Of a stretch of DNA of 24,910 nt, positions 9,838 through 23,552 are shown piece by piece. Source of the stretch: a virus; the IMG/VR virus record IMGVR_UViG_3300034104_003092, positions 1 through 24,910 of that record; one strand, 5' to 3'. The position numbers were made by a program, and so were the translations under genes. Positions within the stretch are counted from its first letter, which is position 1, and each line of letters begins with the position of its first letter. The notes below the pieces were generated by a model, which saw nothing but the letters and a program-made list of their open reading frames with translations, made no database searches and was not told where the DNA came from.

Positions 9838-10101
9838 ATGTCAGTAGATTTAGCAGCAGCAGTATGGGAAGAACTCAAACGTTACATTGGTTCTATGGAT
9901 CGAGTTGAAGCTGCAGATGCATTAGTTAATCTGTTAGTAGATAGTAATTTTGACGCAGATGAGATTCGTGATTCCTTTAGGGGAGATCCTGAAGTAAAAA
10001 AAGCACTACAGGCTTACCTAGACGACCATGCTGATGATACAGAAGAAAATGAGGATGAGGACTACGATGATTATGACGATCCTGAGGATGAGGACTATTG
10101 A
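9838..10101 (+). CDS. Small acidic protein with Asp/Glu/Tyr-rich tail
   Basis: 87 residues. Residues 1-65 form a likely helical domain (AAAVWEELKRYIGSMDRVEAA onward, then DADEIRDSFRGDPEVKKALQAYL). Residues 66-87 are almost entirely Asp, Glu and Tyr. It has a good ribosome site (AAGGAG, about 9 bases before ATG). The start directly follows the uvsX stop and the end overlaps the TTG start of the radical SAM gene by three bases, so translation of the three is probably linked. I have seen similar small proteins in aquatic T4-like phages without a defined role. The acidic tail might mimic DNA or bind a basic partner; that is inference. Confidence 0.8.
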   Translation: MSVDLAAAVWEELKRYIGSMDRVEAADALVNLLVDSNFDADEIRDSFRGDPEVKKALQAYLDDHADDTEENEDEDYDDYDDPEDEDY

Positions 10102-11345
10102 CCTCGAAATATTTTCCTATTAACACACAAACTGCTTGTAGACTTAAATGGGCTTGGAGTTCGTTATATCTTAATACTGGCACTACTGGCAGTTGTCACA
10201 GGGCAAGCGTTTCAACATTAACGCTAGAGGATTTTGATAATTTTCATAATACTCCAGCCAAGTTAGAAGCTAGAAAACTCATGCTTGATGGGAAATGGCC
10301 TGGAAACGGTTGCGAATACTGCCAAGATATTGAATCAGCTGGTGGACAAAGCGATCGTCAATTTCAAAACAATATTCCCGACGTTTATCCCGATGTACTA
10401 GATCGAGATTCTACTGCAATAAATGTGCAGCCTAGTGTACTTGAAGTTTTCTTTTCAAATGTATGCAACTTTAAATGTGTTTATTGTAAATCCAGTTTGA
10501 GCTCTCAGATACAAGCTGAAGAACAAAAATTTGGATCTCCTATTATCAAAGTTGGACACAAACCACTAGACAATACATATAAAAATTATGCACCTGCTTT
10601 TTGGAAATGGTTCAGGCTGCACGGGCACGATCTCCAACGATTGAATATACTGGGTGGCGAACCTTTTATACAAAAAGATTTTTTTGAATTACTAAAATAC
10701 TACCAACAAAATCCAAATCCTTCGTTGGAATTCAATGTCGTAACAAATTTACATGTTACAGAAGAACGACTGAGAAATATTTGCGATTCGCTACAAAATT
10801 TGCACATCAACAGTCATGTTAAAAGAGTCGACATTTTGGTTAGTATTGACTCCTGGGGTCCTGGTCAAGAATATGTAAGGCACGGATTTAATAGAGAAAT
10901 CTTTGAAAGAAATCTTAAAATATTAACAGAATATAAAGTTTTCCGTATAGGATTGCTTTCGACTGTGTGTTCTCTTACAATCAATGAATTACCAGAACTG
11001 GCTGATAAATTTCAAGAATGGAATACCTGGCAAGAAATTTTCTGGTATATGCATTTGGTTTTGCCCAACAACGATAGTCCTTTTAGTCCTGCGCTATTTG
11101 ATTACGGAGTCTTCGAAGACGCAATCAATCGTACATTGACCTTGATGCCAACTAATACCTGGGACGAAAAACAAACAGTTGATACTTTTAAAGGTATAGT
11201 TAGTAAAATAAAAGAAAATTCGCAAGACAACACAGCACGACAAAAAGAGTTGATAGATATATTAAATAACATCGACTCCAGGCGCGGTTTAAACTGGCAA
11301 CAGTCGTTTCCTTGGCTTAATGAAAAGATGAAAAATGTGGTATAA
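10098..11345 (+). CDS. Radical SAM protein with N-terminal twitch-type cysteine region
   Basis: 415 residues. The radical SAM cluster motif is C123-x3-C127-x2-C130 (VCNFKCVYC), and LGGEPF (about 190-195) is the SAM-binding GGEP motif. Upstream lie C14, C33-H34 and C72-x2-C75 (GCEYC), the layout I associate with N-terminal-twitch radical SAM proteins, which may hold an auxiliary iron-sulfur cluster. Known relatives modify peptides or small molecules; the substrate here is unknown. TTG is taken as the start because the conserved segment KYFPINTQTAC begins at once and the next ATG would remove the cysteine region. The gene is AT-richer than uvsX and uvsY. TTGA overlaps the previous stop, and the 3' end overlaps uvsY by 11 bases. 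Confidence 0.88.
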   Translation: MTSKYFPINTQTACRLKWAWSSLYLNTGTTGSCHRASVSTLTLEDFDNFHNTPAKLEARKLMLDGKWPGNGCEYCQDIESAGGQSDRQFQNNIPDVYPDVLDRDSTAINVQPSVLEVFFSNVCNFKCVYCKSSLSSQIQAEEQKFGSPIIKVGHKPLDNTYKNYAPAFWKWFRLHGHDLQRLNILGGEPFIQKDFFELLKYYQQNPNPSLEFNVVTNLHVTEERLRNICDSLQNLHINSHVKRVDILVSIDSWGPGQEYVRHGFNREIFERNLKILTEYKVFRIGLLSTVCSLTINELPELADKFQEWNTWQEIFWYMHLVLPNNDSPFSPALFDYGVFEDAINRTLTLMPTNTWDEKQTVDTFKGIVSKIKENSQDNTARQKELIDILNNIDSRRGLNWQQSFPWLNEKMKNVV

Positions 11346-11787
11346 TCGTATAGTAGCTAACTTAGCAGAAATACCTGACTTCATTTCGTATTATGAAAAT
11401 GAGCTGGCAGATGCCAAACGAGATGTTCGTATTGGCGGATATGTTGAGTCCAACATCAAAGAGCTGCCGGGTGTTACTGAACATCGTTTTAATCAACTAC
11501 AGGAAATCGAAGCAGTACTTAATTTTTTACACATACAATTGCGTAAAATTCGTCGCAGACATTTTCAAAAATACCTAGAAGGGTATGCCCGTGCCTTGAC
11601 CAGTAGAGATGCTGAAAAATATGTGGATGGCGAAGATGAAGTCATTGACTTTGAAACCATCATTAACGAAGTAGCACTACTACGCAACAAGTGGCTGGGC
11701 ATCATGAAAGGCTTAGAAAGCAAGCAATGGATGTCAGGACACATTGTTAAATTAAGAACAGCAGGTATGGAAGACGTACAGGTATGA
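11335..11787 (+). CDS. uvsY: UvsY recombination mediator
   Basis: 150 residues (T4 UvsY has 137). UvsY loads UvsX onto gp32-coated single-stranded DNA. The protein is basic and helical, with the family-like central segment EHRFNQLQEIEAVLNFLHIQ followed by LRKIRRRHFQKYLEGYARAL, an SxDAEKYVDGE stretch and a C-terminal WLGIMKGLESKQW helix. It lies 1.5 kb behind uvsX and in the same operon, which supports the call. The start overlaps the radical SAM 3' end, with only GAAAAG as a weak ribosome site, and the stop overlaps the next gene as ATGA. Confidence 0.88.
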   Translation: MWYNRIVANLAEIPDFISYYENELADAKRDVRIGGYVESNIKELPGVTEHRFNQLQEIEAVLNFLHIQLRKIRRRHFQKYLEGYARALTSRDAEKYVDGEDEVIDFETIINEVALLRNKWLGIMKGLESKQWMSGHIVKLRTAGMEDVQV

Positions 11788-12542
11788 CACAATTTAGTAG
11801 TCCTGAACTCAGTCATCAACACAGCCTCGAAACTCTCAACTGCTTGTACGAGTACGATGACTTTATGCAAAGTATTACCACGGTCATTGACATGGGCTGC
11901 GGAGCTGGCCACGACCTAGAATGGTGGGCTACAAGAACCACTAGAGATGAGTCTGCTAGACCACTCAACATCAGATGTGTGGGTGTGGATCACGCTGAAG
12001 ATTTAGGCATGACTCGCAAGTACAAGAACATACGCTACATTTCTAAAGATTTTGAGCAGCCGTTTCCGCCGCAGAAGAAAAAGTATGATGTGGTGTGGTG
12101 CCACGATGCTTTTCAGTATGCAATCAATCCTGTGGCCACATTGTCAAACTGGTGGTCTGCTATGAGCGACGGTGGTATGCTGACTGTCATTGTACCGCAG
12201 TCTACCAATCTTGAATTCAACGTACAGGCCTACGATCAATACGACTACTGTTATTACAACTGGACCATGATCAGCCTAATACACTGTCTTGCTGTGGCAG
12301 GATTTGATTGCGGTAGTGGATTCTTTAAGAAAAAACCCACAGACGCTTGGCTACATGCTGTGGTATACAAAAGCGCACACAAACCAATGGATCCAAGATC
12401 CACCACATGGTATCGACTGAGCGAGCTGGATCTATTACCTGAGTCTGCTATGCGTTCTATTCAGCGTCACGGATATCCAAGACAAAGAGATTTGCTATTG
12501 CCTTGGCTTGATAAAAGTTTAATGTCAATGGCACAACACTAG
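11784..12542 (+). CDS. Class I SAM-dependent methyltransferase downstream of uvsY
   Basis: 252 residues. Motif I is VIDMGCGAG at 34-42; CVGVDHAED is the acidic-loop strand; YDVVWCHDAFQYAINP (motif IV) and a GGMLTVIVPQ strand follow. The region after the core (about 150-252) is rich in Tyr and Trp and probably forms a substrate cap. No DNA-methylase catalytic motif is seen. ATGA coupling to uvsY places it at the boundary between the recombination block and the sugar-enzyme island, so co-expression with either is possible. Substrate unknown. Confidence 0.87.
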   Translation: MTQFSSPELSHQHSLETLNCLYEYDDFMQSITTVIDMGCGAGHDLEWWATRTTRDESARPLNIRCVGVDHAEDLGMTRKYKNIRYISKDFEQPFPPQKKKYDVVWCHDAFQYAINPVATLSNWWSAMSDGGMLTVIVPQSTNLEFNVQAYDQYDYCYYNWTMISLIHCLAVAGFDCGSGFFKKKPTDAWLHAVVYKSAHKPMDPRSTTWYRLSELDLLPESAMRSIQRHGYPRQRDLLLPWLDKSLMSMAQH

Positions 12543-12551
12543 GAACAAGCA

Positions 12552-13199
12552 GTGTACGAACACTTGGGCTGGCACTTTCCTGATTTTGATCGACATTTTG
12601 CTCGTACTGTATCGCAATGGCCCGGCACTGACTATCAACAGGCCACTATTGATCAAGCTGTACAGCATGCAAAAGGATTTGGCTGTGCCGTTGATGTAGG
12701 TGGCAACATCGGCCTACACACAGTTAGATTTGCACAAAAATTTCAACAGGTGCATTCGTTTGAACCCACTGCCATCAACTTTGAATGTCTACAAAAGAAC
12801 ACTGAATCCCTTGCTAATGTCACACTGCATCGTTGCGGGCTAGGCAACGAAGAAACTGTGCTGTCGATCAAGTTACCGCGGGATTCCAACAACTGCGGTA
12901 ACTTTTCTCTAGTTGATTTTGATGTTGATGCTGACACAGTAGAAGAATCCATTTCCATAGTGACTTTAGATTCGTTAAATCTTGTCCCAGACTTGATCAA
13001 GATAGATGTACAGGGATTTGATTATAATGTGTTATTGGGAGCTGCTGACACTATTGCACAGCATCGACCAGTGATCATCATAGAGTCTGAAACTAAAAAA
13101 TCAAGAAACACCATTGGCGAATTCTTAACTGTGCGTGGCTATTCAGTGGCAGCTAAAATCCGCCATGATCAAATTTGGGTGTATTCTGAAACAATCTAG
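12552..13199 (+). CDS. FkbM-family methyltransferase
   Basis: 215 residues with GTG start, AGGA eight bases upstream. FkbM-type enzymes transfer methyl groups to oxygen atoms of sugars, lipids or polyketides. The fold is shown by VDVGGNIGLHT (48-57), HSFEPTAINFECLQKN (68-83), an LxRCGLGNE strand (about 92-100) and the family signature LIKIDVQGFDYNVLLGA (148-164) followed by RPVIIIES. Its 3' end overlaps the convergent minus-strand gene by 47 bases, the longest such overlap in the window. Its position among glycosyltransferase genes suggests O-methylation of a glycan. Confidence 0.92.
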   Translation: MYEHLGWHFPDFDRHFARTVSQWPGTDYQQATIDQAVQHAKGFGCAVDVGGNIGLHTVRFAQKFQQVHSFEPTAINFECLQKNTESLANVTLHRCGLGNEETVLSIKLPRDSNNCGNFSLVDFDVDADTVEESISIVTLDSLNLVPDLIKIDVQGFDYNVLLGAADTIAQHRPVIIIESETKKSRNTIGEFLTVRGYSVAAKIRHDQIWVYSETI

Positions 13200-14013
13200 T
13201 AATGGGTTGCCCTGTGGCTAATTCTGCACAGGTCCACTCTGTGTGAGACAAGTTAATCAGCCACTCGCTGCGATCCGGCCTTGCAGGCGATTCAATCTGG
13301 CTCCAATCTAAGTTGGCCACTGGTGCAGCCAAACTTGTAGGACCCACAAAAGCAGGAACTCCTGACACGACAGCCTGACTGCCGGGGCCACTGTTCCAAT
13401 TTACCACAGCCCAGGCATTATTAAGCACACGATCAAAATCAAAATCGTCGTAAGTGTTGGGCATGTGCAAGGGCTTGTCTATAATACAACCTGGTAATAC
13501 CACAACTTCCTGCCTGGGATGACTGCGTATCACTATGGGTCTTTGTGTGTGTTCACGAAGATGATCAACTGTTTGTTTTAACCAAGTGTCAACAGCAGGT
13601 TGCCCTGCCCATTGCTCACTGTCATGCCGCTGTAAGGCAATCACAATGTCCTCGCCAGACTCGCGCCACGGCTTCGACCCCAAGTTTAGTTTTTGTGGTC
13701 TTTGTAGATCTATGCCGTGTCCGTAAAAGGCCGCAGATCCTGTGCCGTTGATGCCCATCTTCCAGGTTTGCCCGCGTTGCAACATACCAACTTCCAGCAC
13801 AATCACTGGACGGCCACTACTGCGAAACGCAGACCATACAGCGTGATTCTGTTGCATACGACCAGACCATAGCACACTCCAGATAACAGCAACATCTGCA
13901 GACATGTCGTGACTGCTGTGAGATAACCCCAACTGATCAAGCCCTTGCTGAAATGCAGCAAACACTGGCTGACTGTTTAGGGCACCAAACTTATTAAATA
14001 GACCGAATCGCAT
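13153..14013 (-). CDS. GT-B/capsule-synthesis-like protein, paralog A
   Basis: 286 residues. It is one of five related proteins here. The C-terminal half shows RPIVIRSHPRQE (158-169), with the HP pair typical of KpsC/KpsS-like and other GT-B enzymes, then WNSGPGSQAVVSGVPAFVGP (206-225), a nucleotide-sugar-binding-like Gly/Ser loop. A tail motif shared with its paralogs follows (SQIESPARPDRSEWL, then TEWTCAELATG, about 238-268). The N-terminal half has WKMGINGTG and EDIVIALQR. Likely role: sugar transfer in polysaccharide or virion-glycan assembly (inference). It is separated from its four paralogs by three plus-strand genes and has its own late-type promoter. The 3' end is antisense to the FkbM gene for 47 bases. 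Confidence 0.82.
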   Translation of the reverse strand: MRFGLFNKFGALNSQPVFAAFQQGLDQLGLSHSSHDMSADVAVIWSVLWSGRMQQNHAVWSAFRSSGRPVIVLEVGMLQRGQTWKMGINGTGSAAFYGHGIDLQRPQKLNLGSKPWRESGEDIVIALQRHDSEQWAGQPAVDTWLKQTVDHLREHTQRPIVIRSHPRQEVVVLPGCIIDKPLHMPNTYDDFDFDRVLNNAWAVVNWNSGPGSQAVVSGVPAFVGPTSLAAPVANLDWSQIESPARPDRSEWLINLSHTEWTCAELATGQPITRLFQNTPKFDHGGF

Positions 14014-14017
14014 GAGA

Positions 14018-14025
14018 TTAAATAC
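14018..14025 (+). promoter_or_regulatory. Late-type promoter element for the 14050 gene (left arm of palindrome)
   Basis: TTAAATAC preceded by GA; the octamer ATTAAATA matches the late consensus at seven of eight positions (TATAAATA, second position T and first A differ depending on register). Transcription would begin near 14031 and yield a short leader carrying AAGGA (14040-14044), five bases before the ATG at 14050. It is the exact inverted copy of the minus-strand element at 14034-14041. Confidence 0.55.
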
Positions 14026-14033
14026 CTGAGACA

Positions 14034-14041
14034 GTATTTAA
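14034..14041 (-). promoter_or_regulatory. Late-type promoter element for the 13153-14013 gene (right arm of palindrome)
   Basis: On the minus strand this reads TTAAATAC, preceded by C (CTTAAATA). Transcription would start near 14028 and give a leader of about 15 bases before the ATG at 14013, with only a weak AGG. The two opposite promoters face across an eight-base centre, so their polymerase footprints must overlap. Confidence 0.55.
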
Positions 14042-14049
14042 GGACATTT

Positions 14050-14871
14050 ATGACACGCAAATTTTCTGTAGTAACAACATTTCATCAAGCCGGATACGAC
14101 AAGTATGGCAGCAGAATGATTGATACATTTTTGGCAAATTGGCCTCAAGAAGTACATCTGTATGTGTATGCAGAGGATTGCACTGTGACACAAACAGCAC
14201 CAAATCTCACAGTGTATGATTTCCACAGTCGTGTTCCGGCCCTAGTGGCATTTAAAGATCGCTACCGAGACGATCCACGTGCCAATGGCCGACTACCAAT
14301 GGGACCTGTTGATGCCAAGGGCAAGCAACGTGGTATTGGATTCAAATGGGACGCAGTTCGGTTTAGTCATAAAATTTATGCTGTATGTGATGCTGCTCGG
14401 ACCACAGTGGATACTGTGTTTTGGATGGATGCCGACATGGTATGCCACAGCCCCATTACACTGGCGACTTTAGATCGTCTGATGCCCCCGACTGCTGACA
14501 TTGCTTACCTGGGACGAAAAGGAAAATACACCGAGTGCGGCTTATGGGCTATCGACATGAGCAAAAGTTCTAACATGTTGTTTGTGTCGTGGATGCAAGA
14601 AGCTTATGACCAAGCTGAAACAGGCGTGTTTGCCATGAAAGAGTTTCACGATTGTTGGGTATTTGATCGCACAAGAGAACGATTACAGGCTCAAGTACCT
14701 GCGTGGCAACAACTGGATTGGTCTGCACATTTGGTCATGGGGGAAGGACATCCGTTGATCAATACCGAATGGGGTGCATACTTGGATCATCTCAAAGGTA
14801 ATCGCAAAGACTCAGGTCGTAGCAAAAGCAAGGATCTTGTAGTTAATCGCACAGAAGGATATTGGAAGTGA
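14050..14871 (+). CDS. Glycosyltransferase-like protein (GT-A fold)
   Basis: 273 residues. N-terminus KFSVVTTFHQAGYDKYGSRM (4-23) is the first Rossmann strand and loop; VFWMDADM (123-130) carries a D-x-D (D127, D129), the metal and sugar-nucleotide site of GT-A enzymes. A later stretch with WAIDMSKSSNM and FHDCWVFDRTRER resembles the acceptor-side part of GT8-like proteins. Proteins of this type are frequent in aquatic T4-like phages. The acceptor is unknown. A good ribosome site (AAGGA) and a late-type element precede it. The 3' end overlaps the next gene (GTGA). Confidence 0.85.
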   Translation: MTRKFSVVTTFHQAGYDKYGSRMIDTFLANWPQEVHLYVYAEDCTVTQTAPNLTVYDFHSRVPALVAFKDRYRDDPRANGRLPMGPVDAKGKQRGIGFKWDAVRFSHKIYAVCDAARTTVDTVFWMDADMVCHSPITLATLDRLMPPTADIAYLGRKGKYTECGLWAIDMSKSSNMLFVSWMQEAYDQAETGVFAMKEFHDCWVFDRTRERLQAQVPAWQQLDWSAHLVMGEGHPLINTEWGAYLDHLKGNRKDSGRSKSKDLVVNRTEGYWK

Positions 14872-15539
14872 AATCTTTTATTATCCACCTATCCAAAATT
14901 GCCAGCAGTTTAGAATCTGCTGTTAAAACGCAACAGGATCTTGCTGCCATTGGTATAACTGCAGACTTGTTCGAAGGCACTTACGGCAACGAAGCTGAGA
15001 AAATTTTTGCCGAAGAAGGCAGAACTGTACATCCTATTGATTTCAAAGGAAATGCCACTGATGAACGAGATGCCAACAAGGCTCGACGCCCTGGCGTAAT
15101 GGGTTGTTTTTACAGTCATTACAGATTATGGAAAAAATGTGCAGAGCTGGGAGAAACTATCTGTGTGTTCGAAGATGATGTAAAAGTACTTAGGCCATTG
15201 GTGCCAGTGGAGTTTGTAGATATTTTAGTGATTGCCATGGGCGCCAGGAAAAACGAAAAGTACCTACACTACATATACGATCCCGCAGGAGAATGTCATG
15301 CTGCTGAGTATATTCACAGATCAATGCCGGGTACTGTGGGTTATATGATCACGCCCGATGCGGCTAAAAAATTATTGAGTAACTACAAAAAAACTTTCTT
15401 ATCATCAGACAATGCCATTAATAAAGGAGTAGTCACGATACAAATACACAGCCATATTATGGGGGCTGCTAATCTTGACAAGCAAAGTCTTACTGCCAGC
15501 AAAAAGTTTTGGGAACGATATAGGAATAGGAACCAATGA
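14868..15539 (+). CDS. GT25-family glycosyltransferase, copy 1
   Basis: 223 residues using GTG at 14868. A TTG at 14862 is in frame, but the AGAAGGA site spaces better to GTG, and GTGA overlap is the local style. The family pattern is clear: N-terminal SFIIHLSKIASSLE, then RRPGVMGCFYSHYRLWKKC (73-91), then ICVFEDDVKVLRP (98-110) with the E102-D103-D104 acidic site. GT25 enzymes (LPS glycosyltransferase/Lex2B/procollagen-galactosyltransferase group) transfer galactose or glucose to LPS or protein. The C-terminal AGYMI-like segment is here VGYMITPDAAKKLL. It is ATGA-coupled to the next gene. The copy at 22286 has the same architecture. Confidence 0.9.
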   Translation: MKSFIIHLSKIASSLESAVKTQQDLAAIGITADLFEGTYGNEAEKIFAEEGRTVHPIDFKGNATDERDANKARRPGVMGCFYSHYRLWKKCAELGETICVFEDDVKVLRPLVPVEFVDILVIAMGARKNEKYLHYIYDPAGECHAAEYIHRSMPGTVGYMITPDAAKKLLSNYKKTFLSSDNAINKGVVTIQIHSHIMGAANLDKQSLTASKKFWERYRNRNQ

Positions 15540-16117
15540 AAACATATTTCATAAAAGAAGGCTATCAACACAGGCTGGACAACAAGTACTTCGACGACAC
15601 AGAGAACACTGACAAATGGCAACGGGAAGTTTATACTTTTGCTAGAGACACGGCTGTAAAAAACAACTTTACAAAAGTCATGGATATTGGCACAGGTTCA
15701 GCTTACAAGTTGTTAGACAATTTTCGAGACTTTGATACTGTCGGCATTGATGTGCCTAAAACAGTTGCTTGGCTGCGGGAAACATATCCTGACAGAAAGT
15801 GGATAGATCAATTTGATCCTGTGCTGGGTTACGATCTTGTTATAGCATCTGATGTAATCGAACACATTCCAGATCCTGACGAACTGTTGGATTTAATAGA
15901 ACAGTCTGCTCCTCGATTAATAGTGCTGAGCACACCTGATCGAGACCTGTTGGGCAGAACACCCGATGGACCTCCTAAGAATCGCGCACATGTGAGGGAA
16001 TGGACCCAGCCCGAGTTCCGCAACTACATAAGTTCTAGATTTGAAGTCATAGAACATTTTGTATCAAACCGAAAGCAGTCAACTCAAACCATGTTGGCTC
16101 GTTTAAAGTCTAAGTAA
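15536..16117 (+). CDS. Class I SAM-dependent methyltransferase
   Basis: 193 residues. Motif I is VMDIGTGSAYKLL (48-60), next strand TVGIDVPK, then DLVIASDVIEHIPDPDELL (motif IV) and APRLIVLSTPDRDLLG. This is the Methyltransf_23-like layout typical of sugar and small-molecule methyltransferases. HVREWTQPEF matches the usual substrate-cap region. ATGA overlap with the GT25 gene suggests a paired role in making a methylated sugar (inference). The 3' end overlaps the convergent minus operon by eight bases, and no terminator hairpin is apparent at the junction. Confidence 0.88.
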   Translation: MKTYFIKEGYQHRLDNKYFDDTENTDKWQREVYTFARDTAVKNNFTKVMDIGTGSAYKLLDNFRDFDTVGIDVPKTVAWLRETYPDRKWIDQFDPVLGYDLVIASDVIEHIPDPDELLDLIEQSAPRLIVLSTPDRDLLGRTPDGPPKNRAHVREWTQPEFRNYISSRFEVIEHFVSNRKQSTQTMLARLKSK

Positions 16118-16934
16118 AATGGTATTGAAATTCGGGGTCGTAAGATACCACAGGACCCAGGTACTGTTCTAATAGATCCAAGGCTGTGCCCGAATGCCAC
16201 TCGTCTCTGGTGTACTGGCACCACGCTATGTGCTCGTGCCACGCTGCTCGTAACGCAGGTTCTGTGGGGTCGGTCCAATCTTCTAATGTGTTACGGCCTG
16301 CTGCCCACGTGGGACAAGGTTCTGTGCTGATGACTTTTTTGCCGTACCAAAAAGCTTCGCAAGTGATGGCCGAACTTTGACTTACCACCAGATCTGCCCA
16401 GTCTAAATCTTCCCACAAGGTAGAATATCTGTTGTAAGCCCGACCAGGTTTTATTCGTATCTTGATACGAGCCCTAGGAAACCGAGCAGACATGTCATCA
16501 GCCCACTCGTCTGATGTCTGCTGACTCCACACTCTAGTGGTTATTTTGCTGGGTGCTATCAATACATTCTTGATTTTTTTTACCCGCCAGGCGTGCCGTG
16601 GCAGATTCATCTGTGGCCAACGAGAATACGGAACAGACTTTAATACAGTGTTGGCCCAACTGTTGACACTGGCACGATAAAACATTCTTTTCTTATACAA
16701 GTGATTGCCAAGATATCCTCGCCCAATATAAACAGCCGGCTGCTGATGGTTTAACCAAGCGGGCACATGTTCGCGTGTAAGATCGGCATAGCAAAACACA
16801 GGAATATCAGCAGCGGCCGTCTGCCAATCATTGCAGACAGTCATACCAGTTCTTGTTAACAGCCAATTATCAACCCATTCCTGTATGAATGCATCGTCTT
16901 GGTAATCAGAAGCCAATAGTTGCAACTGCTTCAT
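16110..16934 (-). CDS. GT-B-like protein, paralog E (HP motif lost)
   Basis: 274 residues from MKQLQLLASD. A longer in-frame start at 17024 is rejected because ATG at 16934 gives the ATGA overlap used throughout this operon. It shares with its paralogs the C-terminal layout: VVSQSSAITCEAFWYGKKVIS (183-203), then a Trp-rich tail with SGTALDLLEQYLG. In place of HP it has RIKIRIKPGRAYNR (156-169). YIGRGYLGN (69-77) matches the GYFGN of paralog D, so D and E form a sub-pair. It is the last gene of the six-gene minus operon. Probable sugar transferase or a non-catalytic partner; unproven. Confidence 0.78.
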   Translation of the reverse strand: MKQLQLLASDYQDDAFIQEWVDNWLLTRTGMTVCNDWQTAAADIPVFCYADLTREHVPAWLNHQQPAVYIGRGYLGNHLYKKRMFYRASVNSWANTVLKSVPYSRWPQMNLPRHAWRVKKIKNVLIAPSKITTRVWSQQTSDEWADDMSARFPRARIKIRIKPGRAYNRYSTLWEDLDWADLVVSQSSAITCEAFWYGKKVISTEPCPTWAAGRNTLEDWTDPTEPALRAAWHEHIAWCQYTRDEWHSGTALDLLEQYLGPVVSYDPEFQYHFT

Positions 16935-17878
16935 TTCTTTGCCCAGGCCCTCATGTGTGCCCAGCAACGGCCGGACGTTAAATCTGCGTGGCTCCAGTGA
17001 AACTGACTTATACGCTGTAGCCAAGCTGTGCGATCTGGCATGACAGGATTTTCTATCTGACTCAAATCTGTGCCGGCAATATCTCTACACTGGCTTCGTT
17101 CTGGATCTGTAACAAAAACAGGAATGCCTTCTATGGCAGCACCTACAGTTGGACTTGAGTTGTGTGCTACTGCTGCCCAGCAATGTTTTAGATTCCGTAC
17201 CAACGGATCAACTGAATTGCTAACAGTGACGTTTTTTAACTGATTATTTGCAGAAAACTGTTTCATATATTCCGCAGCACGTTTGTCACCCGGATGTGGC
17301 CGTATCACAATAGGACGATCAGTATGCTGTCGCAACTGTGCAATAGTGCTAGTGGCCCAGTCCACTACGCTAACATTGCCCATACTCCACCCACCATTTC
17401 TCTGAAGGCACACCAAAATGTGATTGCCAGTACCGCGCCAGGCCCTGACATGAATGCCCATTTCTTGCTGTATAGTTGTCCATCTTGTAGGATCTGGATT
17501 GTGGTCACAGTATTCTCCTGTATTGGGAAAAATGCCATCGTAGCTGTATCTTAGATAATGATGCGGATTCTTTGTGTCGTGATATAAAAATAGATTGCTA
17601 TCGGCAATCACAGTCCGACCGCCGTGTTGACGTTGTTGATCTATGATGTGCTGTCTAAACTTCAGATGCGGAGCCTTCTTGCCATTCTCGTGTACCCAGC
17701 CCAGCATAACAGCAACATCAGCAGGCTCGTATTGCAGGGCAGTGGATACATTTCCCACATCGCCTGCTGCTGACACACCATCAGCATAGTTTTGTAAAGT
17801 CAAAAACTTTTCACTTGTGTTGTGTTGACCTTGCAGCATTTTGGCAGGTAGTGTTGCTAGATAACTAACGACTTTCAT
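16931..17878 (-). CDS. GT-B/capsule-synthesis-like protein, paralog C
   Basis: 315 residues. The family features are complete: GNHILVCLQRNGGWSMGN (151-168), RPIVIRPHPGDKR with H195-P196, then HNSSPTVGAAIEGIPVFV and the tail TDLSQIENPVMPDRTAWL with HWSHADLTSG. The N-terminal half (about 54-125) has ADVAVMLGWV and a YSYDGIFPNTG segment. It is the closest in layout to paralog A (13153-14013). ATGA overlaps at both ends tie it into the minus operon. Related KpsC/KpsS-type enzymes add Kdo or other sugars to lipid or glycan acceptors; the sugar and acceptor here are unknown. Confidence 0.82.
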   Translation of the reverse strand: MKVVSYLATLPAKMLQGQHNTSEKFLTLQNYADGVSAAGDVGNVSTALQYEPADVAVMLGWVHENGKKAPHLKFRQHIIDQQRQHGGRTVIADSNLFLYHDTKNPHHYLRYSYDGIFPNTGEYCDHNPDPTRWTTIQQEMGIHVRAWRGTGNHILVCLQRNGGWSMGNVSVVDWATSTIAQLRQHTDRPIVIRPHPGDKRAAEYMKQFSANNQLKNVTVSNSVDPLVRNLKHCWAAVAHNSSPTVGAAIEGIPVFVTDPERSQCRDIAGTDLSQIENPVMPDRTAWLQRISQFHWSHADLTSGRCWAHMRAWAKK

Positions 17879-18876
17879 TTAATGCTTTCTATCACTGGTA
17901 ACAGATGCTGCCAAGCAGTACCATCACGCATTTCCGCCTGCGACCACTGGCAACCAGAGAGCTTTTTTAACCAGGCTGATACTTTGTCATCACTGACCAT
18001 TTTTACTGCATCTATTTCTCCCACACTGTGACTGCTGATGCTCCAAGCAAAGTTTCCAGGATCATAAGCAATAGTGGGAATTCCTGCTACGATACTGTCT
18101 ATGGCCAATCCACTGGTATAAGTCACAGTACAGTAGGCATTCCGTAAATCGTCTGACCAAGGAACTTCTGCCCCGTCACTGAATCTGATATTCTGTACAC
18201 CAGCCAACAACAATTTTCTTGCCAGCTCTTCATGGTCAGCAAATGCTCGTTGAGAACTCAGGGGATGGTTGCGTACCACAACAAAACGACCGGTATTTTG
18301 TCTTATGTCCAATATGGTACGCAGTGCCCAGTCGTTAATGTCAGCACCGCGTAAGCTGGCATCGCCTGGCAGCTGAAGTGCAACCAATATGTGTCCGTCG
18401 GGATTATTACGCCATCCTGCCCATTGTACATCTAACATTTCCAAGCGTTTTTTTGCGTCGTTGCTGTGTAATTCTGGCCAATGGGCATCCTGACTCAAAA
18501 ACCCGTTGACACCGACCCTCCAATAAGAATTTTCTCTGTTGGTCACCCGATTCAACAAAGGAGTTTCGATGCACACAAACCGGCGAGCATTCATTGCCAC
18601 ACTGGTTCTAGTTTGATGTGTGCCTTTTTCTCTGGGTTTCCAAGAACCAAAAAACACAGCAACGTCGCACTCTTTGTAAGATTCGGCATACTCGTAGGTA
18701 ATTTGATTACGATCAAAATTAAAATCGGCCCACCTTCCGATCCTAACAACTTGATCAAATTTTTCTTCATCGGTGGAATTTTCGCCAATCCAGGATTCTA
18801 TTCCCTTGGCAAAGTCTTTAAGTATTTCTCGTTCTTGCATGTTACCGGCCGATGCCATGAAAATCTTAATGTGCAT
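17875..18876 (-). CDS. GT-B/capsule-synthesis-like protein, paralog B
   Basis: 333 residues, the longest of the five. Landmarks: CDVAVFFGSWKPREKG (70-85), YWRVGVNGFLSQ (118-129), DGHILVALQLPGDASLRG (160-177), FVVVRNHPLSSQR with H204-P205, YTSGLAIDSIVAGIPTIAYDPG and the tail motif CQWSQAEMRDGTAWQHLL. Its start overlaps the end of paralog D by 11 bases, slightly more than the four-base overlaps elsewhere; a second Met at residue 7 is possible. Same inferred role in sugar transfer as its paralogs. Confidence 0.82.
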   Translation of the reverse strand: MHIKIFMASAGNMQEREILKDFAKGIESWIGENSTDEEKFDQVVRIGRWADFNFDRNQITYEYAESYKECDVAVFFGSWKPREKGTHQTRTSVAMNARRFVCIETPLLNRVTNRENSYWRVGVNGFLSQDAHWPELHSNDAKKRLEMLDVQWAGWRNNPDGHILVALQLPGDASLRGADINDWALRTILDIRQNTGRFVVVRNHPLSSQRAFADHEELARKLLLAGVQNIRFSDGAEVPWSDDLRNAYCTVTYTSGLAIDSIVAGIPTIAYDPGNFAWSISSHSVGEIDAVKMVSDDKVSAWLKKLSGCQWSQAEMRDGTAWQHLLPVIESIK

Positions 18877-19657
18877 TTAGTATCCTATAAGCTGTGCCAT
18901 CTCTGAGTTCTTTTACATGAAATTGCCCATAGGCCAAGTGGCAAGCCCATGCGTATAATTTATCTGTGTCTGCCCAGTAAGGAGATTCTATTTGGCTAAG
19001 ATCCTGGCTGGCTACTGGATTAGCAGCATTGGCAGGAGCAAGTGTAAAAACAGGTACTCCTAACATGACACTTTCTGTAGCAGCATTGGAGTTGAATGTT
19101 ACAAGAGCATGTACATCATCCACTAACACTCGAGTCAAGGGATCCGTAGCAATACGATCTATTCTATTGGCTGCTCGTTGCCGCACTACAACGGGACGAT
19201 CGGTGTGTTGTTTTATTGTGCTGACAGTTTCTTCAGTCCAGGCCTCAAGATCTATGCCGTAAAATTTACAAGGTTTTGTATCTGGTACAGCAACAACGAT
19301 TTTACGGCCATATCGTCGTGGCTGTAGTGTGATACCCATACGCTGCCATCTATCTCCAGGGCGATCGACAATCTCGCCGTGCTGCAAATTGTTCTTGACT
19401 ATGCGGTGCCATACCTTCCAACCTTGCGGATTTTGAGGATTGGGATTATTGCCAAAGTAACCTGAATCCATGTAATAGAAATCTCTACCGTCTGCCCAAC
19501 ATTGTTTCATTAACTTGTGCTTGAGTATACCTCGTATGACTATGGGATCGCGTGATGCTGCATAATCAAAATCAGCAACAGGGACACCGCCACTTCCTTT
19601 TGCAAACATGTTGACATACTCATCTTCGCCGTTTTTGCTGTAGTAGATCCAAGTCAT
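18866..19657 (-). CDS. GT-B-like protein, paralog D (HP motif lost)
   Basis: 263 residues. The C-terminal half aligns with the other paralogs: DRPVVVRQRAANRIDR (153-168), where the HP pair is replaced by Gln-Arg, then LVTFNSNAATESVMLGVPVF (185-204) and the tail DLSQIESPYWAD with LRDGTAYRIL. The N-terminal half carries YMDSGYFGNN (62-71) and RWQRMGITLQPRRYG (103-117), shared in outline with paralog E and not with A, B or C. It follows the TylF-like gene with ATGA overlap. Loss of HP could mean a different donor or loss of catalysis. Confidence 0.8.
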   Translation of the reverse strand: MTWIYYSKNGEDEYVNMFAKGSGGVPVADFDYAASRDPIVIRGILKHKLMKQCWADGRDFYYMDSGYFGNNPNPQNPQGWKVWHRIVKNNLQHGEIVDRPGDRWQRMGITLQPRRYGRKIVVAVPDTKPCKFYGIDLEAWTEETVSTIKQHTDRPVVVRQRAANRIDRIATDPLTRVLVDDVHALVTFNSNAATESVMLGVPVFTLAPANAANPVASQDLSQIESPYWADTDKLYAWACHLAYGQFHVKELRDGTAYRILNAH

Positions 19658-20313
19658 CGGGTTACTACAAGACTACACTGCTGATGACCGCTGCGTAGCA
19701 ATGGTCTAAATGCACGATTGTATTCAGCTAACCACTCGCCTAGAGCACGATACTCGCCATCGGCCCATAAGTCATATTCTGCTAACCCTGACCACGGATA
19801 CATTTCATCAAACACTATCACTGTGCCAGGTACAATTCGGTCGTTCAGCAAAGTTAGTACATCTCGTGTGCTGCTGTATAAGTCGCAGTCCACGTGCAAG
19901 AAACTGATGTTGCCAGGGTTGGCTGCTTTCCAAGGTGGAATACTATCTGAGAACCATCCTGGCACCAGCTTAACGTTGGCAGCAAATGTAGGTTGTACTG
20001 GTTCTAACCGCATGTCAAATTTGCCAGCAGGATGTGTTTTACCTTCGTCGCCGCTGCGTATGTACCAAGGCTCAGGCAAGCCTACAAAGCTGTCGAATCC
20101 CCATACAGTTTGGTTTTGAAAATGTTCAGCAATGTGTGCCATGGTCTTGCCACGATACACACCAAACTCCATCACAAGTCCTGTGAGTTCTGCTGCCGGT
20201 AAAGCCTGTAGCAAATGACGCTTGCGATCAATGCCTTTGCTTTTAAACACTCCTCCAACAAGGGGTGCTGAGTGAAAGCAATCTATACTATAGTTTGTTG
20301 CGTCAATCATCAT
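19654..20313 (-). CDS. TylF/MycF-like O-methyltransferase
   Basis: 219 residues. The family that includes the macrocin O-methyltransferase TylF methylates sugar hydroxyls. Visible landmarks: LVMEFGVYRGKTMAHIA (46-62, SAM site), VWGFDSFVGLPEPW (70-83, highly characteristic), FLHVDCDLYSST (138-149, metal-binding Asp residues), VIVFDEMYPWSG (165-176) and E-Y/A-ALGEW near 188. It is the second gene of the minus operon, ATGA-linked on both sides. Its chemistry fits methylation of a deoxysugar or glycan made by the surrounding transferases (inference). Confidence 0.9.
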   Translation of the reverse strand: MMIDATNYSIDCFHSAPLVGGVFKSKGIDRKRHLLQALPAAELTGLVMEFGVYRGKTMAHIAEHFQNQTVWGFDSFVGLPEPWYIRSGDEGKTHPAGKFDMRLEPVQPTFAANVKLVPGWFSDSIPPWKAANPGNISFLHVDCDLYSSTRDVLTLLNDRIVPGTVIVFDEMYPWSGLAEYDLWADGEYRALGEWLAEYNRAFRPLLRSGHQQCSLVVTR

Positions 20314-20996
20314 TGGTCAGCCCGTTGTAAGCAATAGTCAGTTAAGGCACGTTCACGATGCCATTCTTCGCCCTGCGGAGTATCGTGGAATTCTGTGAAG
20401 CAGGGTGTGCCTAAGGTATAGTGCAGGAGTTTGGCCTCGAGGTTAGCACCAAACTCATCAGGCAACCAATTCCATTCAATGGGCAATTCACCAATACGTT
20501 CGTCCTGAATCCAAGAGAATCTGTGTAATTCAGCACCTGTGGCTTTTTCAATAAACTTTGGCGTCAATCGTTTATTGGCAGGATTCTGGCAGTTCCACAA
20601 GATCACGCTGGACCAATTTTTACGAGGATAATCTTCGTTACGACTACCCAGGTACTTTTCTGTCATACGAGTTTTGTAATCGTGCTTGACTACTTGCACA
20701 TCAACATTGTACTGTCGCAGATTCCACAGTTCCGCAATGTCACCCCGCACAATCATGTCGCCATCGATAAAGATGGCGTGACCAGTGTAATTCATGAGAT
20801 GTGGCACTAGGAATCTACTGTAGATAAAGTGATTGCTGCCGTCAGTATGTGTTTCGGTGTAGTCAGCGAACAAGTTTAGAGCCAAGGGAATGATAGCAAC
20901 CGGTTGACTAGCTTGACGTATAATACTGTTAGCACAAGTATGGTAAGCAATGGCTTCTCTGGGATCGTAGCCAACAAATATTGGAATAGGTTTCAT
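20310..20996 (-). CDS. GT8-like glycosyltransferase, first gene of minus operon
   Basis: 228 residues. N-terminal PIFVGYDPREAIAYHTCANS (5-24) is the usual start of GT8-like phage and bacterial proteins. IFIDGDMIVRGDI (75-87) holds the D78-x-D80 metal and donor site, WSSVILWNC is the acceptor-loop strand, and LLHYTLGTPCF carries the C-terminal His-x-x-x-Gly metal-site region. The gene starts five bases after a perfect minus-strand TATAAATA with no ribosome site between, so a leaderless late mRNA is predicted. It leads a six-gene operon that runs to 16110. Confidence 0.9.
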   Translation of the reverse strand: MKPIPIFVGYDPREAIAYHTCANSIIRQASQPVAIIPLALNLFADYTETHTDGSNHFIYSRFLVPHLMNYTGHAIFIDGDMIVRGDIAELWNLRQYNVDVQVVKHDYKTRMTEKYLGSRNEDYPRKNWSSVILWNCQNPANKRLTPKFIEKATGAELHRFSWIQDERIGELPIEWNWLPDEFGANLEAKLLHYTLGTPCFTEFHDTPQGEEWHRERALTDYCLQRADQ

Positions 20997-21001
20997 ACAG
21001 G

Positions 21002-21009
21002 TATTTATA
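21002..21009 (-). promoter_or_regulatory. Perfect late promoter octamer for the minus operon
   Basis: TATTTATA on the plus strand reads TATAAATA on the minus strand. CCTGT (five bases) separates it from the ATG at 20996. It would drive all six minus-strand genes from 20996 to 16110. Confidence 0.75.
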
Positions 21010-21031
21010 TGTGTATATTAAGATTTGAGAG

Positions 21032-21037
21032 TAAATA
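21032..21037 (+). promoter_or_regulatory. TAAATA late-type element 4 nt before ATG
   Basis: AGTAAATA (21030-21037), then TGTG, then ATG at 21042. The first two bases differ from the consensus, but core and spacing copy those before four other genes. It is divergent from the octamer at 21002-21009, 22 bases away. Confidence 0.45.
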
Positions 21038-21041
21038 TGTG

Positions 21042-21758
21042 ATGAAAAAAGCAAAAAACTGTGCTTGTGTCATCCACGGCGATGCCTATGATTGGATATA
21101 TGTGGAACGACTACACAAAATGTTGCAAAACAACTCATCTCATCAGATACGTATGCATGTGTTTACCGAACCTGCTAGACCTGTGCCCGAGAATTATATA
21201 CGACATGACTTACAAGAATGGCCTGGCATTGCTGGTCCTAAGAAATCTTGGTGGTATAAAATGCAGATGTTCGATCCAGCACATGATATGGGCAGAGTTT
21301 TATATTTTGACTTGGATACTGTGATCACCAAGAATATTGATTGGATCTGGCAACTCAATGAACAGTATTTTTGGGCTATCAAAGATTTTAAATATCTTTG
21401 GCGCACATCTTGGAACGGAATAAATTCCAGCGTAATGATTTGGGACACTGAAAGATTTGCCTGGATATGGGACGACTTTGCCAGTAAACATATCAATGCT
21501 ACCGTCAAACTATTTCACGGCGACCAAGATTATCTCAACACAGTTCTGTCGGATCGAGATCGTAGATTTATTGATCCAGAAGTCATAAAAAGCTGGCGAT
21601 GGCAGTGCAAAGATGGCGGCATGGACATGCGTACACGACAGTATCGTAGCCCCAATGCTGGCACAGTAGTGGATCCCAAAACTGCTGTAATGATCTTTCA
21701 CGGTAAACCCAAACCGCACGAAGTAGCAGATCCTGTAATTACACAATATTGGAATTAA
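21042..21758 (+). CDS. GT-A-type glycosyltransferase-like protein
   Basis: 238 residues from MKKAKNCACVIHGDAYDW. Longer in-frame starts at 20904 and 21009 are rejected because they run into the divergent promoter or the opposite gene. RVLYFDLDTVITKN (85-98) contains the D-x-D (D90, D92); KSWWYKMQMFDP (68-79) is the typical preceding helix; NSSVMIWDTERFAWIWDDF and FHGDQDYLN match the acceptor part of GT8-like folds; a late FHGKPKPHE has the C-terminal His-Gly-Lys metal-site motif. No ribosome site. It heads the right-hand arm of the island, one base before the beta-rich protein gene. Confidence 0.87.
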   Translation: MKKAKNCACVIHGDAYDWIYVERLHKMLQNNSSHQIRMHVFTEPARPVPENYIRHDLQEWPGIAGPKKSWWYKMQMFDPAHDMGRVLYFDLDTVITKNIDWIWQLNEQYFWAIKDFKYLWRTSWNGINSSVMIWDTERFAWIWDDFASKHINATVKLFHGDQDYLNTVLSDRDRRFIDPEVIKSWRWQCKDGGMDMRTRQYRSPNAGTVVDPKTAVMIFHGKPKPHEVADPVITQYWN

Positions 21759-21759
21759 T

Positions 21760-22281
21760 ATGATTATACGAAAATTTAAACAAATGGGCGAATCCTACGG
21801 AACCCAACCTGTACTGGTGGTTGCCACGCTAGACGGTGTTGAAATGTGCAGACGCTATACAGATCCAGTGGCTGCAAATCTGCCAGTATTCCCTGACCAT
21901 CAGATACACGGTGTAGATCTGTTTGCATGGACAGATCCCAAAGAATGGGCAGGCACACATGTCATGACCATTACAGTCACTGGTGGATTATACTTGCTGA
22001 CAGATACCCTAGCCACTTACGGATTATATAGGGATTTAACTAGCCCCACTTATCCACCACCGCTATTGCCGGGAGGTCCAGACCGATTCTGTATGCCATT
22101 TACTACGGCGATTGACGGAGTTACATATAAAGATCCTTTAACTGATGTCACCATCAACGGCGTAACTCAAACAAGAGAACGCTCGTCAAACACCACCGGG
22201 CAATGGTATTGGGTTATTCCCGATGGAGCTACATTCAGCTGTACAATCAACGTTCAACCCGGTATTGATTTGCCCGAATGA
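21760..22281 (+). CDS. Beta-rich probable virion protein, copy 1
   Basis: 173 residues, paralog of 23010-23552. Shared landmarks are RxFKQxGxxYG at the N-terminus, TLDGVE (about 22-27), GPDxF, DPLxxVxIxGVxQT and GQWYWV near the C-terminus. It is rich in Thr, Val, Gly and Pro, with alternating hydrophobic residues. There is no signal peptide or catalytic motif. GGAATTAAT before ATG gives a weak ribosome site. I know such proteins only as uncharacterised proteins of aquatic phages; a virion surface role is inferred from composition and late promoters nearby. It could be an acceptor for the neighbouring glycosyltransferases, but nothing in the sequence proves it. Confidence 0.75.
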   Translation: MIIRKFKQMGESYGTQPVLVVATLDGVEMCRRYTDPVAANLPVFPDHQIHGVDLFAWTDPKEWAGTHVMTITVTGGLYLLTDTLATYGLYRDLTSPTYPPPLLPGGPDRFCMPFTTAIDGVTYKDPLTDVTINGVTQTRERSSNTTGQWYWVIPDGATFSCTINVQPGIDLPE

Positions 22282-22285
22282 TTTA

Positions 22286-22987
22286 ATGAAAGCTTATATA
22301 ATATACTTGCCCGAAATACCGCATAGTGTTGAAATTGCTAACGAAGCAGTTATAGCTGCTGGACAATTCGGAATTAATGCAGAATTATTTCCAGGGATCA
22401 ACGGATTGTATTGTAAAGATCTTTTTGAAATAATTGGTATTAAAAAACTACTATCTAAAAATATGAAAGTTCCGGGTGTGCAAGGTTGTTTTTTGAGTCA
22501 TTTCAAATTATGGCAGTATTGTGTAGAAATTCAAGAAACAATACTGATATTAGAACACGATGGAATATTATTGCGCGAAATTCCTCTAGATGTAGAAAAA
22601 CACTTTACAGAAATTTTAAATTTAGACCCTTGCGACCAGTTTTCAGACGAGTATAACGAAAACATATTACGAACCCAATTATACCCAATAGAATATAACA
22701 GTTTAATACATGTAAACAACAAACACCATCTTGCTGGTTACTATATCCCGGGTGCGTATGGGTATTTGATTAAACCCAAAGGGGCGCAAAAACTCATCGA
22801 TTGGGCATTGAAAAAAGGGGCACTGCCAACTGATAAACACATAGGTACAAATACTGTTGATATAAAAATAACGTCGGTTCCGGTAGTTAGATTACACAAA
22901 TTTTATAACTCAACTAACATTAAAAAATTCAGCGGAACAAAGCATTTAGAGAAATTTATGCCGAATAATTCCGCGGATTCTGTATAA
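22286..22987 (+). CDS. GT25-family glycosyltransferase, copy 2, AT-rich
   Basis: 233 residues from MKAYIIYLPE. An in-frame ATG at 22223 is rejected because it lies inside the upstream gene and the family begins with KAYIIYL. Family blocks are VPGVQGCFLSHFKLWQYC (62-79) and ILILEHDGILLREIP (86-100), where E90-H91-D92 replaces the usual Glu-Asp-Asp, so metal or donor binding may be altered. GAYGYLIKPKGAQKLIDWAL is the usual C-terminal block. The gene is about one third GC in the row I counted, AT-richer than the two paralogs on either side, so it looks inserted between them. There is no ribosome site. Its stop lies inside the late octamer of the next gene. Confidence 0.87.
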   Translation: MKAYIIYLPEIPHSVEIANEAVIAAGQFGINAELFPGINGLYCKDLFEIIGIKKLLSKNMKVPGVQGCFLSHFKLWQYCVEIQETILILEHDGILLREIPLDVEKHFTEILNLDPCDQFSDEYNENILRTQLYPIEYNSLIHVNNKHHLAGYYIPGAYGYLIKPKGAQKLIDWALKKGALPTDKHIGTNTVDIKITSVPVVRLHKFYNSTNIKKFSGTKHLEKFMPNNSADSV

Positions 22988-23009: not shown

Positions 23010-23552
23010 ATGACAACAAGAACTTTCAAACAATACGGACAAGGATACGGCGCTACTCCTGCTACTATCGCAGTTACCTTAGACGGCGTTGAGATTTTTA
23101 ATGGTGATATTGCCACTTTAAACCAGCCTGTTCCAGACATGCCTATTGTACCGGGTGAAAACCTTGGCGTAGAAATATACTCGTGGACCAAAGACCTGGC
23201 GTTTCAAGGTGCGGATACACTGCAAATCACAGTTGCAGATGGCACATTATTATTGGCAAAAAGCGTGGCCAACTATTTTAAGTACATTGATCCTGCTCTT
23301 CCTTCTGGTCCTTATGCCAGCTCCGGTCCTGATAATTTTGTATATTTTTATGACTTCACTGTAGATGGCGATGTCATATATGATCCCTTGAGCAATGTCA
23401 GTATCGACGGTGTTGCACAAACAGTGACCAGAGTAGAAGGCGAGTTTGGACAATGGTATTGGGTTTTAGGCCCAGGTCAGACAATGACAGCTACCTTAAA
23501 TGTGCTAGCCGGTTACGAATCCGACAACATATATCCCCCACCAGCTCCGTAA
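23010..23552 (+). CDS. Beta-rich probable virion protein, copy 2
   Basis: 180 residues, paralog of 21760-22281. N-terminus RTFKQYGQGYGATP and TLDGVEIFNGDI, then a Pro/Gly-containing strand-rich core, SGPDNF (about 108-113), YDPLSNVSIDGVAQT (about 129-143), GQWYWVLGPGQTM (about 149-161) and a Pro-rich end. The late octamer and strong ribosome site imply high late expression, as for structural proteins. A terminator follows at 23579. I do not recognise a characterised family; a virion or decoration protein is the best guess. Confidence 0.8.
   Translation: MTTRTFKQYGQGYGATPATIAVTLDGVEIFNGDIATLNQPVPDMPIVPGENLGVEIYSWTKDLAFQGADTLQITVADGTLLLAKSVANYFKYIDPALPSGPYASSGPDNFVYFYDFTVDGDVIYDPLSNVSIDGVAQTVTRVEGEFGQWYWVLGPGQTMTATLNVLAGYESDNIYPPPAP

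Follow-up and report, generated by a model that had tools for sequence, protein, structure and literature searches.

Kdo (3-deoxy-D-manno-oct-2-ulosonic acid) is an acidic sugar that is attached by bacterial enzymes to capsules and lipopolysaccharide. Its nucleotide-linked form, cytidine monophosphate (CMP)-Kdo, is synthesized through KdsA and KdsB and is commonly made by Gram-negative bacteria for lipopolysaccharide. In the solved enzymes the nucleophilic Asp and a carboxylate-binding Gln form a QxxxD motif, and a (K/R)xHP motif binds CMP (PMC12887879, PMC9587256, PMC10148158). WbbB, KpsC and KrkA act by double displacement through a covalent enzyme-sugar intermediate, a mechanism that no other glycosyltransferases are said to share so far (PMC12887879). 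The present study concerns five paralogous genes in IMG/VR virus record IMGVR_UViG_3300034104_003092, a complete record of 24,910 bases (the window) that comes from an aquatic phage, T4-like as judged by its terminase, RecA/UvsX and gp32-like genes. Homology, the folds of two of the products, motifs, gene order and selection were computed, as was the presence of KdsA/KdsB in some related phages and of family members in SAR11 chromosomes. It is almost certain that the five genes belong to the GT-B/KpsC superfamily. The most defensible claim is that the family to which they belong forms, within the KpsC/WbbB/KrkA superfamily, a branch that has lacked annotation and is arranged in phages as an ordered cassette of several paralogues. 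We also think it rather probable that these ancient paralogues of the KpsC/KpsS/WbbB/KrkA superfamily build a glycan containing Kdo, or a similar ulosonic acid, in a stepwise manner, probably on the host surface.

Five homologous genes in the window

An earlier sequence-only reading had reported five minus-strand genes with a common C-terminal layout, and all five open reading frames (ORFs) were found where it had placed them. Each represents one subfamily of a larger family: E at 18866-19657 (263 aa), D at 17875-18876 (333 aa), C at 16931-17878 (315 aa), B at 16110-16934 (274 aa) and A at 13153-14013 (286 aa). Four of them lie in tandem, as had been noted, with overlaps of 11 bp (E to D), 4 bp (D to C) and 4 bp (C to B); gene A stands apart from this E-D-C-B run. 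An in-frame TTG upstream of B would lengthen the gene to 17024; the ATG at 16934 is consistent with the 4-bp C/B overlap. A, C, D and E are mutually homologous by BLASTP (E 1e-11 to 1e-25), with comparable values in phmmer. B is more divergent (about 19% identity to E; BLASTP E 1e-5 to 2e-3). It is tied to the other four by an iterated profile, being absent in round 0 and reaching E 6.9e-46 in round 1, and also by its predicted fold. The ratio of nonsynonymous to synonymous substitution rates (dN/dS) against close relatives is 0.06-0.13 for each of the five genes, and 0.12-0.13 for B. The five genes are thus real, homologous and under purifying selection. The common layout itself holds in part. 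R-x-HP is present in A (RSHP), C (RPHP) and D (RNHP), but E has RQRA and B has RIKP; the loop ending in G-V/I-P is replaced by GKK in B, and the tail E-x-x-x-G reads D-x-x-x-G in C.

Fold and profile relationships

AlphaFold (AF2) models cover C and B, and their folds were compared by Foldseek against the Protein Data Bank (PDB). Both are two-domain alpha/beta proteins, with a predicted local distance difference test (pLDDT) of 95.6 and a predicted template modelling score (pTM) of 0.92 for C, and 90.0 and 0.90 for B. The top PDB fold matches of C are KpsC, KrkA and WbbB (best E 5.2e-8); UDP-GlcNAc 2-epimerases and further GT-B enzymes come next. With B, KpsC, KrkA and WbbB fill all of the 27 top PDB rows (best E 1.6e-5). 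When sequence profiles were compared with PDB sequences, WbbB ranked first for the pooled family profile (E 0.019) and was also reached, weakly, by a B-centred profile; single-subfamily profiles gave no relevant match there. In profile-profile comparison with KpsC/KpsS-type proteins, a check that the sequence-only reading had proposed, D was linked at 96.2% with E 2.6e-9 over 228 columns. The alignment is in register: QLPGD is matched with QTRDD, the two HP motifs with each other, and E104 with the Glu of EEGYLRP. The values for the other subfamilies were 84% for C, 77% for E and 61% for A, against controls of at most about 2% for unrelated neighbour families and at most 28% for GT4/2-epimerase families. 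The proposed GT-B, capsule-synthesis-like nature is therefore upheld for both modelled members, and neither a fold other than GT-B nor a grouping with unrelated families was found for the modelled B and C or the D profile.

The same fold evidence bears on the idea that the enzymes hypermodify phage DNA with sugars against restriction, as do the GT-B alpha- and beta-glucosyltransferases (AGT and BGT) of T4. DNA glycosylation by viral glycosyltransferases is established, and the T4-like genome, the GT-B fold and a site beside UvsX and gp32-like genes would all suit it. The top folds, however, are Kdo transferases and not DNA glucosyltransferases, and AGT and BGT are absent among the 50 best fold matches listed for C or B. 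Moreover, TylF and FkbM sugar methyltransferases and KdsA/KdsB accompany the cassette, relatives occur in SAR11 chromosomes, and a hydroxymethylcytosine synthase was not noted in the window. DNA modification is therefore very unlikely.

Distribution, subfamilies and gene order

In pattern scans of viral contigs the pooled profile had 437 relatives and B had 24. The iterated profile collected 393 ORFs, which lie on 106 partly overlapping DNA segments. No family was named by Pfam, PHROGs or NCBIfam for the family proteins tested. The five genes had no match to PF05159 (Capsule_synth, cut-off 20 bits), and one of 139 members reached E 0.0086. PF20471 (DUF6716, putative glycosyltransferase) matched 16 of the 139 at E <= 0.01; its cut-off of 27 bits was not reached by P0005 (17.4 bits) or P0004 (11.3 bits). 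Megablast of the window against phage records gave no match. Few named phages have relatives, namely Pelagibacter phage Mosig (two), Caulobacter giant phages, and ct7QV12.

The tree supports the splits between subfamilies, with ultrafast bootstrap (UFBoot) values of 97-100, but no particular order among the deepest branches. Median identity is 35-53% within subfamilies, that is among orthologues across contigs, and 16-27% between them. The genes recur in the order E-(D or F)-C-(B)-A, where F is a subfamily with no member in the window; ECA was seen in 24 segments, EDCBA in 10, DEDCA in 8 and EFCBA in 7, overlapping segments of one contig being scored separately. In many aquatic phage contigs the cassette is placed between UvsX and other sugar genes. 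The phylogeny that had been suggested for timing the duplications thus shows that the copies are ancient, deep, well-supported subfamilies and not recent duplicates; recent tandem expansion was ruled out by these subfamilies, the fixed order, the divergence between subfamilies and the low dN/dS. Five copies had appeared singular, but three to six is the usual number in this phage group.

Two uses of such a set had been put forward, sequential addition of several sugars and a combinatorial, antigen-like decoration. Fixed orthologous subfamilies in conserved order fit the former. For the latter, in which interchangeable variants would give surface diversity, it can be said that phages differ in how many copies they carry and in the D, F and B slots. 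It is nevertheless highly improbable: subfamilies are far more divergent than orthologues, their splits are well supported, order is fixed, purifying selection is strong and there is no pool of recent variable copies. The "Moraphages", reported with four core glycosyltransferase groups (PMC12619734), may overlap with this family.

Active-site motifs and proposed mechanism

Motif states were tallied in 293 unique family members, and the active-site signature was found to be fixed per subfamily. Of the five in the window, D alone retains the complete set (Q168LPGD172, R202xH204P205 and the candidate acid E104), as in retaining beta-Kdo transferases; Gln, Asp, Arg, His and the acid are each present in 34/34 members of D, and the Pro of RxHP in 33/34. 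Subfamily A keeps Gln and RxHP in 63/63 and has Ser at the nucleophile position in 63/63 (QxxxS; acid E75 in the window gene). C keeps Gln and RxHP in 78/78 and has Gly at that position in 78/78 (QxxxG; acid D93). E has Pro for Gln, Pro, Ser or Ala at the nucleophile position, and RxR or RxK for RxH, and the acid is retained in 76/76 (D64). F shows Pro for Gln, RxK and the acid in 13/13. In all 19 unique members of B there is Ser or Pro for Gln, a mixed nucleophile position, RxK or RxR, and no acid. The acid (E or D) is thus present in all members of A, C, D, E and F and lost in B. The (K/R)xHP motif is kept in A, C and D, and in B and E its His is replaced by Arg or Lys. Because the QxxxD nucleophile motif is present in D and not in A, B, C or E, the latter four were not filed as retaining Kdo transferases.

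The complete motif set also occurs in ct7QV12 and, bar the exact acid, in 320-aa SAR11 proteins. It is read as ancestral because it is common to these and the outgroup enzymes, and the simplest reading is that the signatures of A, C, E, F and B would be derived states of it. Most of the copies are very likely to be active glycosyltransferases. For D the donor is likely to be CMP-Kdo or a close ulosonate; for A and C the chances of such a donor appear even. Since only one of the five keeps the full catalytic machinery known, the duplicates appear to have taken over separate steps, as on an assembly line, and stepwise synthesis of a single glycan by the cassette is what we consider somewhat the better supposition.

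In the inferred scheme, which extends to enzymatic activity, the acceptor, the order in which sugars are added, and the donor and mechanism of every copy, the five paralogues and the GT8, GT25 and sugar-methyltransferase genes next to them would assemble a Kdo-containing oligosaccharide step by step on a surface glycan of the infected cell. D would act like KpsC: Asp172 would attack CMP-Kdo to give a covalent enzyme-sugar intermediate, from which the sugar would be displaced, with net retention, by a hydroxyl of the acceptor that an acid (candidate Glu104) activates. A and C would probably bind CMP-ulosonate because Gln and RxHP are kept; because Ser or Gly replaces Asp they would form no covalent intermediate, which points to another reaction, possibly a single-step inverting one. 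E and B have lost the CMP/ulosonate motifs and would probably use other donors, and B, in which the acid is also lost, may be non-catalytic.

It is rather unlikely that some copies, B especially, are catalytically dead and serve as partners or scaffolds for the others. The loss of Gln, nucleophile, HP and acid throughout B would agree with this, but B has its own signature, SSAITCEAFWYGKKVIS, which is strongly conserved and which together with the low dN/dS is compatible also with a new donor. A more specific scenario is doubtful. Here a retaining Kdo transferase of the double-displacement type would have been duplicated and its Asp replaced (Ser in A, Gly in C), giving inverting or otherwise different CMP-Kdo transferases that make several Kdo linkages in a phage-specified acidic glycan, with KdsA/KdsB supplying the donor in some phages.

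Donor supply

In three cassette contigs, L075, L083 (357 kb) and L109, genes for KdsA and for a KdsB-like CMP-Kdo synthetase lie within a few kilobases of the cassette, KdsA being called by NCBIfam KDO8P_synth (TIGR01362) above cut-off. KdsA (Kdo-8-phosphate synthase) and KdsB-like genes were located at L107:14799-16900, L075:15949-17362 and L109:18012-19512; L112 (15365-15832) has an RpiB-type sugar-phosphate isomerase. A reverse search gave 18 viral KdsA loci, five of which show E-C-A in the fetched DNA, one of these being the L075 contig again; in L224, L225, L227 and L230 KdsA adjoins E-C-A. Among named phages KdsA of this sort is rare, being present in 4 of 50,697 records. One of its carriers, cyanophage S-SCSM2R, has no match to C or D by tblastn, and with five of the 18 loci bearing the cassette KdsA could be accepted only partly as a general companion. 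Supply of sialic or pseudaminic acid through NeuB was rejected, as NeuB is absent from the 20 phage records searched. The genes kdsA/kdsB have been reported from viruses (PMC10653327, PMC5332604). The KdsA/KdsB neighbours are a circumstantial pointer to Kdo transfer from CMP-Kdo.

Ordinary GT-B enzymes acting on nucleotide diphosphate sugars or CDP-glycerol, with Kdo-like motifs inherited and a donor that is not Kdo, would be an alternative. Gln and HP are lost in E, B and F, and UDP-GlcNAc 2-epimerases are among the fold matches of C. In addition, an RfaE/HldE-like nucleotidyltransferase fused to a phosphomannose-isomerase cupin stands upstream of the cassette in 75 of 101 segments (L109:8189-8986 and relatives), which points to another activated sugar; this gene was not seen in the window. 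On the other hand A, C and D show little or no variation in Gln and RxHP, KdsA/KdsB are found as neighbours, and KpsC/KpsS-type profiles fit these three subfamilies far better than do epimerase and GT4 profiles, so that a donor other than Kdo for the whole set seems improbable.

Several observations weigh against stepwise synthesis of a Kdo-containing glycan by KpsC-like enzymes. No member lies above the Pfam or NCBIfam cut-off as a Kdo transferase. Most Foldseek matches have TM-scores of about 0.5 with a root-mean-square deviation of 7-9 Angstrom, and the likeness is therefore at the level of the superfamily and not to one enzyme. D owes its placement to sequence profiles, and B scores 1.7% with the KpsC profile, which is no link, and higher with GT4 (28%). 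Thirteen of the 18 KdsA-bearing viral loci show no cassette in the fetched DNA. A search of the 19 other large records, among them the window's 81-85 kb relatives, found neither KdsA nor KdsB, so most such phages would rely on host CMP-Kdo. Evidence on the acceptor consists of circumstantial pointers.

Relatives in cells and the site of the glycan

One empty bacterial scan had suggested a phage-only family, an idea dropped when a second scan and a search of a SAR11 family revealed chromosomal relatives. In the family of a SAR11 single cell, 60 of 110 genomes hold a relative, mostly one apiece. Eight of these SAR11 regions were read. There the relative is found close to purH, and the variable stretch around it also contains methyltransferase-, sulfotransferase- and 2-oxoglutarate-oxygenase-like genes, these neighbours being named mostly by sequence inspection and not by family search. 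Two forms exist, of about 253 aa without Q/HP and of about 320 aa with QxxxD and RxHP. SAR11 hypervariable regions code for surface molecules (PMC4053759), though the locus beside purH was not identified in that source. Among other Pseudomonadota the family is rare, with matches in 3 of 397 genomes, two of them strong, and the frame of one strong match (L136) is not settled. A C-subfamily gene at L111:10001-10909 stands beside a guaA-like gene in an apparent SAR11 single-cell chromosome contig, possibly through phage-to-host transfer. Three of the four bacterial-collection loci look like binned phage contigs: L109 and L110 (Neomarinimicrobiota metagenome-assembled genome, MAG) and L112 (Euryarchaeota MAG) appear to be T4-like phage contigs, L110 having the same match. 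In the algal Tetraselmis virus 1 at least four proteins match the predicted model of C (TM 0.67-0.74), and Kdo-type 2-keto sugar acids occur in the theca of its host genus (PMC10762512). Together these point independently, if circumstantially, to Kdo chemistry.

Whether the host surface is the target is evenly balanced. That the glycan sits on the virion, on a capsid, tail or fibre protein, is the less probable placement. Two family members of CcrColossus lie between tail and lysis genes, the GT25 gene at 22223 in the window lies between the paralogous unknown proteins at 21760 and 23010, and other phages have known virion glycosylation (cited in PMC12619734). Against this, no structural gene regularly adjoins the cassette, its constant neighbours being UvsX and other sugar genes, and the SAR11 relatives lie in a variable chromosomal stretch with sugar-modifying genes.

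Other genes of the window and of related loci

Six overlapping minus-strand genes run from 20996 down to 16110 in the order GT8, TylF methyltransferase, E, D, C and B. The first gene of this operon encodes a GT8-type glycosyltransferase (20310-20996, minus; PF01501 E 4.9e-8; 90 of 101 related loci). It is followed by a TylF-type (sugar) O-methyltransferase (19654-20313, minus; PF05711 E 1.8e-19), which has a 4-bp overlap with E. A second GT8-like protein is encoded on the divergent strand (20904-21758, plus; PF01501 E 0.0011, under cut-off). On the plus strand there are also GT25-family glycosyltransferases at 14862-15539 (PF01755 E 4.6e-18) and 22223-22987 (PF01755 E 1.3e-14), an FkbM-type methyltransferase at 12552-13199 (PF05050 E 1.5e-14), class I methyltransferases at 15536-16117 (PF13489 E 3.8e-11) and 11784-12542 (PF13847 E 3e-10), and a radical SAM protein at 10098-11345 (PF04055 E 7.6e-7; PHROG 14086). 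The conserved protein at 14050-14871 (plus), present in 85 of 101 related loci, has no Pfam match and is a probable GT-A glycosyltransferase by its DADM motif.

A 150-aa protein of no known family (11335-11787, plus) recurs in 93 of 101 related segments, where its gene separates UvsX from the sugar cassette. Paralogous-looking small proteins of 173 and 180 aa (21760-22281 and 23010-23552, plus) stand on either side of the second GT25 gene and have no match in Pfam or PHROG; relatives of the latter occur in 10 of 101 related segments, and the two might be targets of glycosylation or components of a fibre. Downstream of the cassette in L109:13110-15738, L108:1-2074 and L112:10728-13456 lies a pair of conserved genes that carry no annotation (about 390-420 and 490 aa), the first of them (in L109) without a Pfam match.

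Significance

Sister subfamilies with fixed, differing residues at the nucleophile position are a natural experiment on the evolution of mechanism. If the Asp-replaced copies prove to be inverting, a natural switch of glycosyl-transfer mechanism would have occurred inside one family. Hundreds of unannotated aquatic phage genes and their SAR11 relatives gain a testable function, Kdo glycan assembly, with a bearing on how phages could alter the surfaces of some of the ocean's most abundant cells.

Comparison with known systems

Lipopolysaccharide/glycosyltransferase islands of pelagimyophages and cyanophages are likewise from T4-like aquatic phages, carry many glycosyltransferase genes and are thought to alter the host surface; the accessible text of that source does not describe a multi-paralogue KpsC-like family for them (PMC7029224). 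The "capsule polysaccharide biosynthesis protein" copies of Tetraselmis virus 1 resemble phage C in predicted fold, but theirs is a eukaryotic virus. KpsC and KpsS (PF05159; KpsC belongs to CAZy GT107), the retaining beta-Kdo transferases that serve group 2 capsules, have the GT-B fold in common with the phage family, and with the D subfamily QxxxD, R/KxHP and an acid at aligned positions. They differ in that the phage proteins are single-module, of 260-330 aa, arranged in a multi-gene cassette, under the Pfam cut-off, and without the nucleophile in four of five. The N-terminal domain of WbbB (CAZy GT99) is the best PDB match by sequence profile and among the top folds, with QxxxD and HP alike, but at a TM of about 0.45 and a marginal sequence E-value, and the phage proteins have no linked second transferase module. 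KpsS1 (CAZy GT118), a retaining pseudaminic acid transferase with an alternative ulosonate donor, is described as belonging to the same superfamily (PMC12887879). KrkA (CAZy GT140), the beta-Kdo transferase of the K13 capsule, matches the predicted folds of phage C and B; it is a trimeric protein of two activities, whereas the phage proteins are short. KrkA also illustrates that a shared fold and shared motifs are possible at almost no sequence similarity (PMC12887879).

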